In this document: positions 1 to 17,853 of the stretch, one piece after another
How the letters are laid out: every line of letters begins with the position of its first letter
Numbering within the stretch: the first letter of the stretch is position 1
NCBI GenBank assembly: GCA_902500825.1
Contig: CABVRX010000008.1
Location: forward strand, 17,703-81,702
Reading direction: 5' to 3'
Source of the DNA: an uncultured Nitrospira sp.
GTDB taxonomy: Bacteria > Nitrospirota > Nitrospiria > Nitrospirales > Nitrospiraceae
Length of the DNA: 64,000 nt
Translations under genes and position numbers: made by a program
Notes under the pieces: model-generated
The model's database searches: none
Seen by the model: only the letters and a program-made list of their open reading frames with translations
What the model was told of the DNA's origin: nothing

Positions 1-72
1 CAGCACGATGAGGATCGACATCACCACGAAGGTATACGGCCTGCGCAAGGCGATCCCGACGATCTGTTTCAT
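1..72 (-). CDS. RND efflux permease, N-terminal fragment cut by window edge
   Basis: The gene starts at an ATG on the minus strand (72-70) and leaves the window after 24 codons. The peptide is an RND-permease N-terminus, running from MKQIVGIALRRPYTF into the first transmembrane helix. It is almost identical, in DNA and protein, to the start of the neighbouring permease at 1641, with three differences in 72 bases. Its ATG overlaps the stop codon (ATGA) of a 29-codon frame that begins at 160, inside the tail of the neighbouring gene. The downstream sequence is unseen, so a full-length pump cannot be confirmed. Confidence 0.75.
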   Translation of the reverse strand, partial: MKQIVGIALRRPYTFVVMSILIVL

Positions 73-141
73 TTTTCGACCTCGACGTTAGTTGCCGGCT
101 CCGAAAACGATTCCGCGCCCGGTTGTTCGTGGTGGTGAGAT

Positions 142-1641
142 TCATGTGGTTGCGACATGGTGACTCCTCATCATGTATTTCGCCATGGTTGGCACCAGCG
201 TGCGTGAGAGCATGAAAGAGGCGAGCATCGCGATCATGACCGCCTCCGCCATGGGTTTAAACAAATAGCCGGAGCTGCCGGTGAGTCCGAAGAGCGGGAG
301 CCAGGCGATCGCGATGCAGAGCGTGGCGACGAGCGTCGGGATGACGATCTGATTGGCGGCATCGACGATGGCTTGCTCCAGCGGCTTGCCCATCTCAAGA
401 TGGCGATCGATGTTTTCGATCATCACGGTCGCGTCATCGACCAGGATTCCGACCGCCAGGGCCAGGCCGCCCAAGGTCATGACGTTGATCGTCTCTTCGA
501 GCCAATGCAGGCCGATGATGGCGGTCAGGATGGACAGCGGGATCGAGGTCCAGACGATGACCGTGGCCCGCCAGGAGCCGAGCAGCAGCAGCACGATGAG
601 GCCGACCAGCGCGCCGGCGGTCAGCATTTCATGGAGCACATCGGAGATCGCATCCTTGACGAAGGTGGAGGCGTCGTCGAGGAGCCTGATCTTCACGCCC
701 TCCGGGACGATGTGCTCGGCCCGCGGGATCATCTTCTTGATCCCGTCCACCACCGCCAAGGTCGAGGCCTCGGTGCTCTTCATGACGACGATGATGACGG
801 TCTGCTTGCCCTTCACCAGCACCGCGTTCTGCTGTACCCGGCCCATGAGGCGCACCGAGGCCACGTCGCGCAGATAGACGAACGCGTTGCCTTCCCGCTT
901 GATCGGGATATCGGCGAATTCCTGGATCTGCAGCGGGGAGGCATTCGTCTGGACGATCCAGTCCGTGGACTTGATCTTGATATCGCCGGTCGGCAGCACG
1001 CGATATTGCTTCATGAGGACATCGTGAATGTCGGACGGCGTGAGGCCGCGCGCGAGCATTTTCTGCGGATCGAGATTGACCATGACCTGCATATCCTGGC
1101 CTCCGTAGGGGTGCGGCAGGATGGCGCCGTTGACGGTCACGAGCAGCGGGCGGATGCGCATGTAGGCGAGGTTATAGAGCTCCGCCGGCGTCATGGTGTC
1201 GGAACTTACCTCCAGCATGGCCACCGGAATGGAGGATGGCGCAAGTCGCATGATCATGGGTGGGGAAATGTCCGGCGGCAGCGCTTTCACGACCGTCTGC
1301 GCAATGGCAGCGATATCCGCTTCGGCCCGGCCTACATCGACTCCGTCTTGCAGGAAAATATTGGTGATGCTGCTACCGTAGTAGGAGTGGCTATGCATGG
1401 ATTTGATGCCTTCCACGGTCGCGGTCACGAACCGCTCGAACAGGTACGTGATGCGTCCTTCCACCTGTTGCGGCAGCAGGCCGGAATAGGTCCAGACCAC
1501 GGAGGTGACGGGGATCAGGATGTTCGGAAAGACGTCGGTCGGCATATGCTGGACCGTCAGGCCTCCGAACAGCACGATGAGGATCGACATCACCACGAAG
1601 GTATACGGCCTGCGCAAGGCGATCTCGACGATCTTATTCAT
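142..1641 (-). CDS. Half-length RND efflux permease (N-terminal half only)
   Basis: This 499-residue protein carries the first half of an inner-membrane RND (AcrB/CzcA-type) proton-driven exporter. It has TM1 at about residues 12-32, the periplasmic porter region to about 330, and TM2-TM6 at about 332-490, including the TM4 segment VGILVDDATVMIEN with its acidic pair. Family members are usually about 1,000-1,050 residues with two such halves; here the frame stops just after TM6 (LSRTLVPTMAKYMM). The next RND start follows 70 bases downstream on the same strand. The second half is therefore missing, by deletion, recombination between tandem copies, or misassembly. A partner adaptor (HlyD) and outer-membrane channel are not visible. 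Without a second half it is unlikely to work as a classical pump on its own. Confidence 0.85.
   Translation of the reverse strand: MNKIVEIALRRPYTFVVMSILIVLFGGLTVQHMPTDVFPNILIPVTSVVWTYSGLLPQQVEGRITYLFERFVTATVEGIKSMHSHSYYGSSITNIFLQDGVDVGRAEADIAAIAQTVVKALPPDISPPMIMRLAPSSIPVAMLEVSSDTMTPAELYNLAYMRIRPLLVTVNGAILPHPYGGQDMQVMVNLDPQKMLARGLTPSDIHDVLMKQYRVLPTGDIKIKSTDWIVQTNASPLQIQEFADIPIKREGNAFVYLRDVASVRLMGRVQQNAVLVKGKQTVIIVVMKSTEASTLAVVDGIKKMIPRAEHIVPEGVKIRLLDDASTFVKDAISDVLHEMLTAGALVGLIVLLLLGSWRATVIVWTSIPLSILTAIIGLHWLEETINVMTLGGLALAVGILVDDATVMIENIDRHLEMGKPLEQAIVDAANQIVIPTLVATLCIAIAWLPLFGLTGSSGYLFKPMAEAVMIAMLASFMLSRTLVPTMAKYMMRSHHVATT
1570..1641. repeat. 72-bp direct repeat of the RND gene start
   Basis: Bases 1570-1641 match bases 1-72 at 69 of 72 positions, in the same orientation. 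Both copies encode the first 24 codons of an RND permease. Such identity over the signal-anchor region, at DNA level, points to recent tandem duplication or gene conversion between two pump genes. How far the match continues to the left cannot be seen. Confidence 0.9.
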
Positions 1642-2079
1642 AGTACGCTTTGGCCCTCAGTATTGATTAACTGTAGGCGTATCATCGCAACGTCAACTTT
1701 CATGATCATTCATATTCTCCATCACTATTCACGTGTGAACCTATCGCAAAAAGACCGACTGAAGGAACTCGTGAATTCCGAAGAAGAGAAAGGAAATATT
1801 ACGAGGTCAACCGATCAGAGAAAGCCCCTTGCCGGGTATTATTCATGATGAGATCGACACCGCCGTAATCTGCGCACGCCTCAATTTCGATAGCGTGCCT
1901 ACAGTCAGACAGCCGACTTGAACGGTGGATTGTCCGACAACCGGACGGCGTCATTCGCGTTGTCGTAGCATGTAACGGTCGCTTGGGAGCTCACGCTGTC
2001 GCCATGGAGAAGCCTCTGCCTGGCGCGTAGACACCACCTCGACGGTTTTTATTATGGATTAATTCGTGAAAGATCCGGA
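1642..2079. other. Intergenic region between RND permease and response regulator
   Basis: These 438 bases contain no convincing gene. The first part (1655-1814) is copy 1 of the 160-bp repeat described separately and lies immediately upstream of the RND start. The rest (1815-2079) lies downstream of the response regulator. It holds a short GTCCG/CGGAC hairpin near 1938-1952 without a T-run, which I do not call a terminator. Long plus-strand reading frames that run through here are antisense to the RND gene and look spurious. Confidence 0.6.
1655..1814. repeat. 160-bp imperfect direct repeat, copy 1
   Basis: This segment aligns end to end with 4248-4407 in the same orientation, roughly three quarters identical with only a few single- or double-base gaps. 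Best conserved blocks are CTCCATCA, TTCACGTG, GTGAATTC, AAAGGAAATATTA and GAGGTCAA. Copy 1 lies directly upstream of the RND permease start (1641, minus). Because it sits where the promoter should be, it may be a duplicated regulatory region; a decayed mobile-element end is an alternative. Confidence 0.8.
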
Positions 2080-2724
2080 CTAGGAGGTTCCCATGATCCC
2101 GTGGGTCAGGGCGTATTTGATCAAATCCGCAGTGGTGTGCAGATTGAGCCGCGTCAGGATCTGACTCTTATGAAACTCAATCGTCCGCGAAGAAATTTTT
2201 AAGAGATTCGCAATCTCCTTCGCCGTCCGTCCCTCGGCCAGCAGCTGCAGGACTTCCCGTTGGCGCGTGGTGAGGGTGTGTGTGTCTGCGGATGTGTCCG
2301 AGGTTTTTGAGAGAAAGACGTTGAGCATGTCTTTGGTAATCAACGGGGTGATATAGGAATGTCCCATCACAGCCGCCCGAATAGCTTGTTCCAATTCATC
2401 CGCTGCTGAGCGTTTGAGCACATAGGCCGTTGCCCCCACTTCAAAGGCGGATTGGACGTATTCTGTGTCTGCGTGCATCGTGACGATGATGATTTTGGCG
2501 CTTGGGCAGATCTTTTTCAGTTGAGCCGCTGCATCGATACCGTTCAGCAGAGGCATGGATATGTCGAGAATCACAATGTCGGGCTGAAGCTCTTTCGCGG
2601 CTGCCAACAGCGCGCGTCCGTCTTCGACGGTGCCGACCAGCTCATACTGGCTTTCGAGAATTCGACGAAATCCCTCCAAGACCAGGAGATGATCATCAGC
2701 CAACAGAATGCGCAGTTTCGGCAT
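2080..2724 (-). CDS. NarL/FixJ-family response regulator
   Basis: A 214-residue DNA-binding response regulator. The receiver domain (about 3-118) keeps the acidic pair D10-D11, the phospho-acceptor D54 in LDISMP, T82 and K104. A LuxR-type helix-turn-helix follows (about 150-206, LTTRQREVLQLLAEG and SSRTIEFHK). It should be phosphorylated by the histidine kinase encoded immediately upstream, whose reading frame overlaps it by 29 bases, so the pair is translationally coupled. A preceding GGAGG-type ribosome site is not obvious because the start lies inside the kinase gene. Target genes are unknown. The neighbouring RND efflux gene shares an upstream repeat with this operon and is a reasonable candidate target. 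Confidence 0.93.
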   Translation of the reverse strand: MPKLRILLADDHLLVLEGFRRILESQYELVGTVEDGRALLAAAKELQPDIVILDISMPLLNGIDAAAQLKKICPSAKIIIVTMHADTEYVQSAFEVGATAYVLKRSAADELEQAIRAAVMGHSYITPLITKDMLNVFLSKTSDTSADTHTLTTRQREVLQLLAEGRTAKEIANLLKISSRTIEFHKSQILTRLNLHTTADLIKYALTHGIMGTS

Positions 2725-3886
2725 GGCGCCCTCCGTGAATCAGCGGGATATCAACCCGGATATGGGTGCCGTGTCCTGGTGTCGGTTCTATCTCGAACGT
2801 GCCTTTCGCTAAGCGTGCGCGTTCCTTCATGTTCAACAATCCCAGGTGGCCACCGGGTTTCTTCGGCTGCTCGATATCAAACCCCAATCCATTATCGAGA
2901 ATGGATAGGACGACCGCCTCTTCCTCGAAAATGACCTCAACTTCGACATGTGAGGCGTGAGCGTGCCGAGCGACGTTGCTGAGACTTTCCTGCACGACCC
3001 GATAAATACAGATGGCGATTTCGTCCGGCAACGCCGCTAGGGGATCATTGTGAACATAGTCGTTCCGAATGCCCGTGCGGGATGAAAATTCATCGACAAG
3101 CCGACGCACAGCTTTCACCAGCCCCAAATCATCCAAAATGGATGGATGAAAGCGATAAGCCATTTGACGCACATCGTCGGAGACGACGGTTAAGCGTTCG
3201 GACACCAAACGAATCTCATCCCGCAGATAGCCGGGATCGGTGAGCGGCTCTTTCTCCATCCGCCGCAGATCCATCGTGAGCATGGCCAGCCGTTGATTGA
3301 TATCGTCGTGCAAGTCGCGGGAGATCCTGCGGCGATCTTCCTCCTGCGCCGTCAAGAGTTGACCGGCCAACGATCGCAACTCCTCTTGACTCTGCTGAAG
3401 CAGCCGTTCGCTGGCGCGCAGCGACCGTTCCGTCTCCGCGCGGTTGGCAATCTCGGTGGTCAGGGCTTGATTGATGGCGGCCAGTTGTTGCGTCCGCGCT
3501 TGCACTCGAGTTTCGAGTTCATCGTGCGCTTGCTTGAGCTCGTCCTCGGCCCTGCGGCGATGCAGAAAGAACAGGAACGGCAACCAGATAGCCGTGAGAC
3601 TGAACAGACGATTGACGACAACCATCCAAAAGGGTATGCCTGTCACGGTTGGGCCGAGAACGATGCCGGTCAGGTCGAGCACGGAGCAGATCGCCGCAGC
3701 AATGAGCGGGTTTTTTTGGTACGGCAACAGTAAAAAGGAGAGGATGGCCAATCCGCCGTAGAGCACTCCCGTACTGATGCCACGTGGAAGATAGAGCTGA
3801 TCAAGGCAGAACAACCCCAGGCCGAGGCCGATAATAATAGGCAGCAAGGCTGTGTTGGAGTCACGAACCATGCAGCGATCCGTCAC
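2696..3886 (-). CDS. Sensor histidine kinase, HisKA_3 (NarL partner) family
   Basis: A 396-residue membrane histidine kinase. The N-terminus (about 12-110) has four hydrophobic segments and almost no periplasmic loop, so the signal is probably sensed in the membrane. A coiled coil (about 112-180) leads to the HisKA_3 dimerisation helix with the phospho-acceptor H193 in SRDLHDDINQRL. A HATPase domain follows, with an N-box near 285 (QESLSNVARHAHA) and G-boxes DNGLGF and GGHLGLLNMKERA. The start given is GTG; an in-frame ATG five codons later (MVRDSN) is equally possible. It precedes and overlaps its response regulator on the minus strand. Confidence 0.93.
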   Translation of the reverse strand: MTDRCMVRDSNTALLPIIIGLGLGLFCLDQLYLPRGISTGVLYGGLAILSFLLLPYQKNPLIAAAICSVLDLTGIVLGPTVTGIPFWMVVVNRLFSLTAIWLPFLFFLHRRRAEDELKQAHDELETRVQARTQQLAAINQALTTEIANRAETERSLRASERLLQQSQEELRSLAGQLLTAQEEDRRRISRDLHDDINQRLAMLTMDLRRMEKEPLTDPGYLRDEIRLVSERLTVVSDDVRQMAYRFHPSILDDLGLVKAVRRLVDEFSSRTGIRNDYVHNDPLAALPDEIAICIYRVVQESLSNVARHAHASHVEVEVIFEEEAVVLSILDNGLGFDIEQPKKPGGHLGLLNMKERARLAKGTFEIEPTPGHGTHIRVDIPLIHGGRHAETAHSVG

Positions 3887-4129
3887 ATCTCATGCGAGAA
3901 CCCATCTCAAAATTAAGAAGTGCCATCCGAAGAATGATCTGTCGTTCGAAGCCCGCCATGTCCTCATGTTTTTCCGGGCAATTCTGATGAAGTAATTCGA
4001 TGATCGATTGACAAGTTTGTCCGACGTGCAGGCACCGGACAGCAGTACAAATCGGCTTGGTGCCCTACACACTCGGTACTCTTGCGCATATTCGGTGCCA
4101 CGCTCGGAGGTCTCGTCGCTTTGTGCCAT
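3861..4129 (-). pseudogene. Possible small frameshifted cysteine-containing gene upstream of kinase
   Basis: Two reading frames here look partly like coding sequence. One opens at ATG 4129 (MAQSDETSERGTEYAQEY) and the other, offset by a frameshift near 4070, continues with a helical, cysteine-rich segment (AVRCLHVGQTCQSIIELLH, then MAGFERQIILRMALLNFE). The second frame ends at TGA 3861-3863, inside the start of the histidine kinase. Joined, they would give a protein of about 88 residues. Alternatively only a 32-residue peptide from ATG 3959 is made, or nothing is. I recognise no family. The overlap with the kinase start would fit a small regulator or sensor partner, but this is speculative. 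Confidence 0.3.
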
Positions 4130-4565
4130 GATGAACTCAGATGGAATGTGCTTTTACTCTGAGAGAGTAGTCGAAAGTTGCAAAGCTAGAACTTGTAGAG
4201 AGTGCGGCAGTATTGTTTTTCCAAACAGAGCGCAACGCTCGGACGAACCTCAGTAGTTACTGGCCTATGGCGTATTATTACAGCATCGGCTCTCATGGTC
4301 ATCCGAGTCCTCCATCAATTGTTCACGTGAGAGCCTATTGCATAGGAATCATGAAAGGAACCGGTGAATTCAGAAGAAGCCAAAGGAAATATTAGGAGGT
4401 CAATCGAAATACGGCATGGTCTCGCCTGTCAGGGTAAGCCGTGCGCCTGCCGTACGAGCACGCTGTGCGGATTGGCTCAGTTCAGTCTCCCGTTTGCTGA
4501 AAAATAGACCTAAGGACAACCTCACACGGAAGGGTGTCATCTGATCGCAGTGAGCTGTCCGGTAT
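4130..4565. other. Intergenic region upstream of two-component system and Lhr helicase
   Basis: A divergent intergenic region of 436 bases. It contains copy 2 of the 160-bp repeat (4248-4407) and upstream sequence that should carry promoters for the minus-strand kinase/regulator genes and the plus-strand helicase. Read on the minus strand the repeat copy includes an AT-rich TAATAAT element (near 4274-4280) that could be a -10 box, without a convincing -35. No other gene is supported. Confidence 0.5.
4248..4407. repeat. 160-bp imperfect direct repeat, copy 2
   Basis: Counterpart of 1655-1814, same orientation and same length. It lies upstream of the two-component genes (minus) and of the Lhr helicase (plus). 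The half nearer 4407 is the better conserved, including TTCACGTG, GTGAATTC and AAAGGAAATATTA. The two copies bracket the kinase/regulator pair, so a duplicated promoter region or a remnant of the insertion that brought in the regulators are both possible. Confidence 0.8.
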
Positions 4566-17300: not shown

Positions 17301-17745
17301 CTACAACAGGATTTCCGCGACTGTTGCTATTCAGGATGGGATGTTTCAGACGGAAAATTTGATCATCGACAGCCCCATTCTGAAAATTACGGCTGCCGGG
17401 AATTACGATTTGCCGACAGACCAGCTGGATCTTGCCGTCGCCGTGAGTCCGTTCGGGTCATACTCACAATTCCTCAAGACGATTCCACTCTTTGGACGAA
17501 TCGTTGCGGGTGATCGCAAGGGGATCGCCACGGCGATGTTCACCATGAAGGGAGCGCTGGAGGATCCAGAAGTAACCTATTTGCCGGTGAAGTCCTTTGC
17601 ATCCGGCCTATCAGGGTTGGCTCAACTCGCGGTCGATGTCTTAACAAACACCCTGACGTTGCCGATAGACTTGGTGATGCCTGACGAAGAGACCGAAGTG
17701 CGACCAAAAGATATGACTCCATCGCCGGCTCCTGCCGTGCCGTGA
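14386..17745 (+). CDS. AsmA-like envelope protein
   Basis: A 1,119-residue protein with an N-terminal membrane anchor (about 5-24) followed by a long beta-rich periplasmic body. Family features include the opening LEKSLGRKINVHRVKF, the AsmA-type LTDVKIHDP segment, repeated LEGxIxxxDLKIRD-like strands, and the C-terminal AAGNYDLPTDQLDLAVAVSP. Known AsmA/TamB-like proteins form long grooves that carry phospholipids to the outer membrane. Start is GTG 14386 with an AGGGGG-like ribosome site just upstream. It is followed after 108 bases by an M24 peptidase on the same strand. Confidence 0.88.
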   Translation: MSHFRLVFLILLAFAVLAGAFLSFSRELTGQDYLKEFVLEQLEKSLGRKINVHRVKFVIFPRIRVELTDVKIHDPESAQVVLAAKRVDLVLRLLPLLKKQVVGKRLLIEEPTLTLRRNERGRWNVLEGLNGQADSGQPTMDMMARTFMIREATLVNGTITIIDAARPDGVRSLELERVEFKLLVRPDRGLAELHLSAAHRGESGISAMSLDGVINRAEPLMSLAGDVTTESTRRLQFEGEIDAADLKIRDVADFLGPRPVSKHLQGALNLKSIVRVMPGVAGYDMVLSDMTAHLNNITLKGKADLAGLLTPQPTFSVTFSSSLVALPQLLKTIPPDWIHPQLPALLVDRQIDGKVQVVNATLTGAATTGPQLSTIGEFHVSEGQGLIGSDRVAAKDLAAVVVVETGRVRITKVTGMYGAMQITGGKAEVSFIDAGPWLELEITGETAATPLIEFLARTVKAERVTQLLAGIRDAEGTAQSTFRLVGSLNQSGGITFAGGQITARQVSLTHVHLPERLTGMQGKFVLADGSTQFDQVTGHLGGTAVQVQGTITGGRTSQFQDFVIRTRGDAAQMVRLFRSTGREQGMFEGTVSTEVALSGSIARPQVRGSAVLDEAKVVVGAMEKPVGAHATVEFEGVMPQLTSVKLQRVELVLPALNIPAKGTLQFGNGFMIDMAVATSTLAVSGLPEWMSKGGLEAGNIEISLDVKGKEPDWKTWRMTGWMGLTNGLMQAKGIDGHIQNLYARVKFLRNEVELKRLSFSVQGSDVAVEATVRNWATKPMITGKIESNQLDLSLIIPKGERTPIREFLETLATTSQVTMSAAIAHGRYKHLKFNSLAARINIQDGMLDIDRFSGESTHGHVAGRLVVRLPPKAPADLDLSFRATGVEFEDLLRLTKAHVHGVSGEVRVSGVLRGHGRNPHGVYPSLNGRVELLLQNGLIMKSNERAVWKVISLLNLPAVLQGKVDLEKEGLPYNRISATVAIQDGMFQTENLIIDSPILKITAAGNYDLPTDQLDLAVAVSPFGSYSQFLKTIPLFGRIVAGDRKGIATAMFTMKGALEDPEVTYLPVKSFASGLSGLAQLAVDVLTNTLTLPIDLVMPDEETEVRPKDMTPSPAPAVP

Positions 17746-17853
17746 CCGACCTGATTCTTGACCACCCTCTATGCCCATGCTAGCATCGGTTGAAGTTTGA
17801 CTCTGGACACCTCTAAGGATTCCATTCGGTCCCGTTATCCCACTGGTACATTC

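Follow-up and report, generated by a model that had tools for sequence, protein, structure and literature searches.

Why should the DNA in front of an efflux pump gene resemble so closely the DNA in front of a neighbouring two-component operon? The question is raised by a locus in an uncultured Nitrospira sp., where two stretches of 160 bp recur within the window (the whole stretch of 64,000 nucleotides that was analysed). The most likely answer, judged from sequence, is that the copies are the docking site by which the two-component system would switch on both itself and the adjacent pump, and the best reading of the locus is an autoregulated two-component module whose operator has been copied to several promoters and whose output has been swapped in evolution. 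To our knowledge cis-regulation in nitrite-oxidising and comammox Nitrospira has been little studied, and a limited literature search found neither a described regulator-operator pair for this locus nor a paper on the system.

The repeat pair and its genes

Alignment places the two copies as direct repeats of equal orientation (Table 1), just as an earlier note on this DNA had them. The same note called them three quarters identical, which holds when a few gaps of 1-3 bases are allowed (BLASTN, 74% over ~140 bp, E ~4e-17) and fails in gapless register, where 102 of 160 positions match (64%). A local alignment of the pair scores 102, shuffled pairs (n=300) reaching at most 31, and the most similar block spans 53 bp at 87% identity (1762-1814 and 4355-4407). 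One copy had been said to abut the RND permease start and the other to lie upstream of the kinase/regulator operon; both statements stand, copy 1 ending ~14 bp before the permease ATG (1641, minus strand) and the kinase start (3886, minus strand) being ~360 bp downstream of copy 2. The permease, regulator and kinase genes are all on the minus strand and therefore both copies are promoter-positioned, in equal orientation with respect to the gene that each precedes. The search for further copies that the note had proposed was run over the whole genome (3.79 Mb) and returned copies 1 and 2, with no third.

The likeness between the copies continues ~70 bp past the operator through the 5' leader, and as it extends beyond the operator part of it is due to duplication and not to binding. 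Each copy has its own counterpart in the genome G065, and the duplication therefore appears older than the G065 split. Each promoter copy is followed by short ORFs that have a GGAG resembling a Shine-Dalgarno sequence (1642-1740 and 4248-4333); in that of copy 1, for example MIMKVDVAMIRLQLINTEGQSVL, the TGA overlaps the permease ATG, a possible translational coupling, and a related short ORF can be seen by eye after the promoter in G065. A leader peptide reading was rejected, as relatives outside this lineage carry an ordinary AGGAGG start instead.

Both domains of the regulator, Response_reg and GerE, exceed the Pfam cut-off. By curated NCBIfam models it is neither NarL (116 bits against a cut-off of 250) nor NarP (100 against 343), and the kinase lies below the curated level for LiaS (Strep_LiaS, 105.7 bits against 450). 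Hydrophobic segments cover kinase residues 13-107, which suggests that sensing may take place inside the membrane. A VDD motif can be read in the permease; this motif is expected in drug-type and not in metal-type RND pumps. The C-terminal half of the permease is a separate overlapping ORF, here interrupted by Ns, whereas most relatives have a single ORF of 1059-1097 aa. The same split (499-505 aa and ~566-569 aa) is found in three species, with ORFs that overlap by exactly 17 nt. In the window the second ORF is preceded by a possible Shine-Dalgarno sequence, AGGAG, and so a genuine permease of two polypeptides may exist. The first 72 bases of the window duplicate the 5' end of the permease gene (1570-1641, 96%) beside a run of Ns just outside the window, and the coding stretch flanking this duplicate recurs past the Ns (window 1-140; L017 about 17700-17850); either faulty scaffolding or a second copy of the pump is the probable cause.

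Table 1. Features of the locus and of related loci. Positions are those of the window unless a contig handle is given.
Feature	Position	Strand	Basis or remark
Copy 1, putative promoter/operator region of RND permease gene, with 5' leader	1655..1814	-	BLASTN 74% to copy 2; model R1
Copy 1 distal half-site A, CTCGTAA, ~-70	1799..1805	-	32-site information profile
Copy 1 proximal dyad B-C, TTCGGAA-T-TCACGAG, ~-43	1768..1782	-	strongest symmetry centre
Copy 1 -35-like element, TTCCTT	1762..1767	-	TTCC nearly invariant in sites
Copy 1 putative weak -10, GATAGG	1740..1745	-	predicted from fixed-offset -10 of relatives; 1-bp shift
Copy 2, putative promoter/operator region upstream of kinase/regulator operon	4248..4407	-	BLASTN to copy 1; model R1
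Copy 2 distal half-site A, CTCCTAA	4392..4398	-	site profile
Copy 2 proximal dyad, TTCTGAA-T-TCACCGG, right half degenerate	4361..4375	-	site profile
Copy 2 -35-like element, TTCCTT	4355..4360	-	
Copy 2 putative weak -10, AATAGG	4334..4339	-	predicted
AcrB-type RND permease, N-terminal half, 499 aa	142..1641	-	Pfam ACR_tran, positions 1-494 of 1021
NarL/FixJ-type response regulator, 214 aa, receiver and LuxR-type HTH	2080..2724	-	Pfam Response_reg 3.6e-27, GerE 2.6e-17
Sensor histidine kinase, 396 aa, N-terminal hydrophobic segments, HisKA_3 and HATPase_c	2696..3886	-	
17-nt overlaps of split permease ORFs	window 142-158; L018:9040-9056; L028:10108-10124		
ORFs of small CxxC protein	L101:6695-6952; L152:5854-6123; L151:6348-6611		

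A dyad at constant spacing from a putative -10 box

Fifteen copies align in register across genomes (alignment A1), in the order CTCGTAAT, about 22 bp, CTTCGGAATT(T/C)(A/C)CGAG, GTTCC and, in most, TATAAC. The information profile across 32 sites, from which the architecture was taken, contains three half-sites of 7 bp, A (CTCGTAA), B (TTCGGAA) and C (TTACGAG); B and C together make a 15-bp dyad, TTCGG(A)A-T-TTACGAG, with halves one base apart (7-1-7), and the strongest symmetry centre of the profile is the centre of this dyad. The TTCC adjoining half-site C is nearly invariant, and the TTCC hexamer is spaced 17 bp from a TATA-type hexamer. At one fixed offset a -10-like TA is found in 22 of the 32 sites and a TATA-like sequence in 20; almost every other offset has few such sites or none. 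Taking the TATA-type hexamer as the -10 box puts the dyad centre at ~-43 and half-site A at ~-70, with a poor -35 element adjoining; across the 32 sites, then, a conserved dyad of short half-sites stands at activator distance from the -10 box. The core of ~45 bp and its offset to the -10 box are kept across genera, as is the orientation of the core, but the flanks are not.

In the window the -10 boxes of both copies are non-consensus and displaced by 1-2 bp, the counterpart of that of copy 1 being TATAAC or TATAGA in most relatives. A sequence-only model, R1, was trained on the 15 aligned sites and searched against 79 genomes; it scores copy 1 at 71.3 bits (1740-1816) and copy 2 at 62.1 bits (4333-4409), both of which are in its training set.

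A constant putative operator with differing genes behind it

The site set comprises 24 Nitrospira-family genomes and the record of one further genome. When the DNA of 79 congeners was searched, 10 further genomes proved to carry the core, either in the gap between the regulator and the RND pump operon or beside another unit of the locus. All R1 matches with E<1e-3 in the 79 genomes adjoin an orthologue of the regulator (at least 72% identity), and the held-out sites recovered in the genus at this threshold likewise occur only beside the regulator. An R1 site is present in 18 of the 19 congeners with an orthologue, the nineteenth having a site that a weight matrix derived from those 15 training sites recognises, and the other 60 congeners, which lack an orthologue, gave no R1 match below 1e-3; the site is found only where the regulator occurs (19/19 against 0/60 at E<1e-3). 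A family-wide R1 search (175 genomes) added six genomes, belonging to two further genera, in which the site once more lies at the locus of the regulator. A second weight matrix, built from 31 sites and scanned over 883,000 positions, scores at least 18 at 36 places against a best background of -4.5; these strong places are largely training sites, so that the result speaks for the distinctness of the pattern and is not an independent test, the independent weight resting on the model search. As most sites adjoin the regulator gene, co-occurrence alone could be linkage, a reading that is weakened by the extra copies and by the g14 site (G122), which has an intervening gene.

There are one to three operator copies per genome, multiplied only inside this locus. 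G065 has three, upstream of the RND operon, the kinase gene and the gene for a 108-aa secreted protein, the last having no match in the window's genome in a search made without a positive control. G007 and G032 have two each, before the gene for a protein of 152-157 aa and before the RND region, and the 31-site matrix adds weak sites upstream of their kinase genes. The same matrix found no site between kinase and RND genes in the g17 genomes, where the RND genes are divergent, and so the pump is not invariably a target. In N. moscoviensis (G003) and six other congeners the regulator and site precede two lipoprotein genes, one of them of OmpA/Pal type (Pfam OmpA 7.5e-19 in G069). In several lipoprotein-linked genomes and in two other genera the first ORF past the site encodes, by eye, a small protein with two CxxC-type motifs, for which no Pfam family was above cut-off; it also has a WW(F)(H/Q)T core. 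The genes behind the operator thus differ, being those of an RND pump, an OmpA/Pal lipoprotein operon or a small Cys-rich protein. One homologous operator, in a MAG that bears the label Nitrospira lenta, has an IS30-type transposase gene close by on its downstream side (L149:5182-6192).

In a tree of the regulator the RND-linked genomes fall together (support 79/77) and two changes are needed for those linked to lipoproteins, a topology that is compatible, with moderate support, with one output swap. We lean towards the view that the two-component system and its operator have remained intact across Nitrospiraceae, that the operon behind them has been exchanged, some lineages having the small Cys-rich protein and the OmpA/Pal-type lipoprotein operon and another the RND pump, and that the operator was afterwards copied to the promoter of the kinase gene and to those of new, small secreted proteins.

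The proposed switch, its rivals and known systems

Very likely, a promoter/operator that depends on an activator has been duplicated to give the repeat; it would belong to a local two-component regulon, be bound and activated by the regulator, and have the RND and kinase units under its control. The membrane-embedded kinase would phosphorylate the NarL/FixJ-type regulator, which would bind the 7-1-7 dyad near -43, adjacent to the poor -35 element (TTCC) and with assistance from the half-site near -70, and so activate transcription from the -10 box at its fixed distance. Before the RND permease/adaptor operon the operator would serve the output, and before the kinase/regulator operon it would give positive autoregulation. 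We infer that the adjacent regulator is the binding protein and that it acts as an activator on the putative sites; the signal is presumably envelope or toxic-compound stress. The earlier note had proposed one factor over both units, and this is supported by a core that different genera share with unchanged orientation and spacing to the -10 box, and that occurs only adjacent to the regulator. Its candidate, the NarL-type regulator, is also favoured by the comparative evidence as the probable shared factor.

It is unlikely that the sites are bound by some other transcription factor with its gene outside the locus; whilst binding by the adjacent regulator is itself a prediction, the sites occur only in regulator-bearing genomes and only in the regulator's locus, and a dyad of 7-bp half-sites suits a NarL/FixJ-type dimer. 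The two stretches could also be non-functional products of a local segmental duplication, their likeness merely historical. The extension of that likeness through the 5' leader past the operator core, and a copy number of only two, are what such a history would leave, but the core and its -10 offset have outlasted the flanks across genera, the model still recognises both copies (62-71 bits, both being training sites), and the separate counterparts in G065 make the duplication appear older than that split; we consider this distinctly unlikely.

The element begins within ~100 bp of the regulator stop codon in most genomes, as would be expected of a structured RNA, or of a terminator-like or 3' untranslated part of the regulator gene. 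Copies are, however, also found upstream of the kinase or secreted-protein gene, or one or two genes away from the regulator, and a structured RNA was rejected for want of any Rfam match and for a negligible consensus fold (-0.56 kcal/mol), which leaves this very improbable. Decayed mobile-element ends, the alternative offered in the earlier note, would account for a gene pair flanked by two similar direct copies. We hold them improbable in the extreme, and a mobile element or MITE was rejected, given one to three copies per genome, all at one locus, a register kept across genera and the lack of terminal inverted repeats; no transposase is tied to the copies, the IS30-type insertion near a single homologous site being incidental.

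The duplicated operator of a local regulon is an undescribed example of a well-known and ordinary kind of gene switch. For a conserved sensor system, probably a guard of the cell envelope, it supplies an operator sequence that can be put to the test. The locus is also a clear example of rewired regulation, in which the sensor has kept its operator but not its output, and this constancy is of more interest than the switch itself.

In architecture the sites resemble NarL-activated promoters, which also have a 7-bp half-site dyad near -43, an upstream site and a weak -35. At E. coli ogt, NarL activates from sites at -44.5 and -77.5, and works from -67.5 too (PMC7419079). In NarX/NarL, as here, the regulator is of NarL/FixJ type with a LuxR-type HTH, but the half-site here is CTCGTAA/TTCGGAA and not the NarL heptamer, the dyad spacing is 1 and not 2, the regulon is strictly local, and no known nitrate-sensor domain was found in the kinase. 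Systems of the LiaRS/VraRS type share a HisKA_3/HATPase_c kinase whose N-terminus is almost only membrane segments, a LuxR-type regulator and, as proposed here, autoregulation and envelope-related targets, and the kinase has a sub-threshold NCBIfam LiaS match. They differ in that this is a Nitrospira system with a different operator, no LiaF neighbour seen, and an RND pump or OmpA/Pal lipoprotein as target. BaeSR-mdtABC and CusRS-cusCFBA are alike in having an RND permease and adaptor under the control of a neighbouring two-component system, as is predicted here, whereas their regulators are of OmpR type and ours is of NarL/FixJ type, with a permease that is split into two ORFs.
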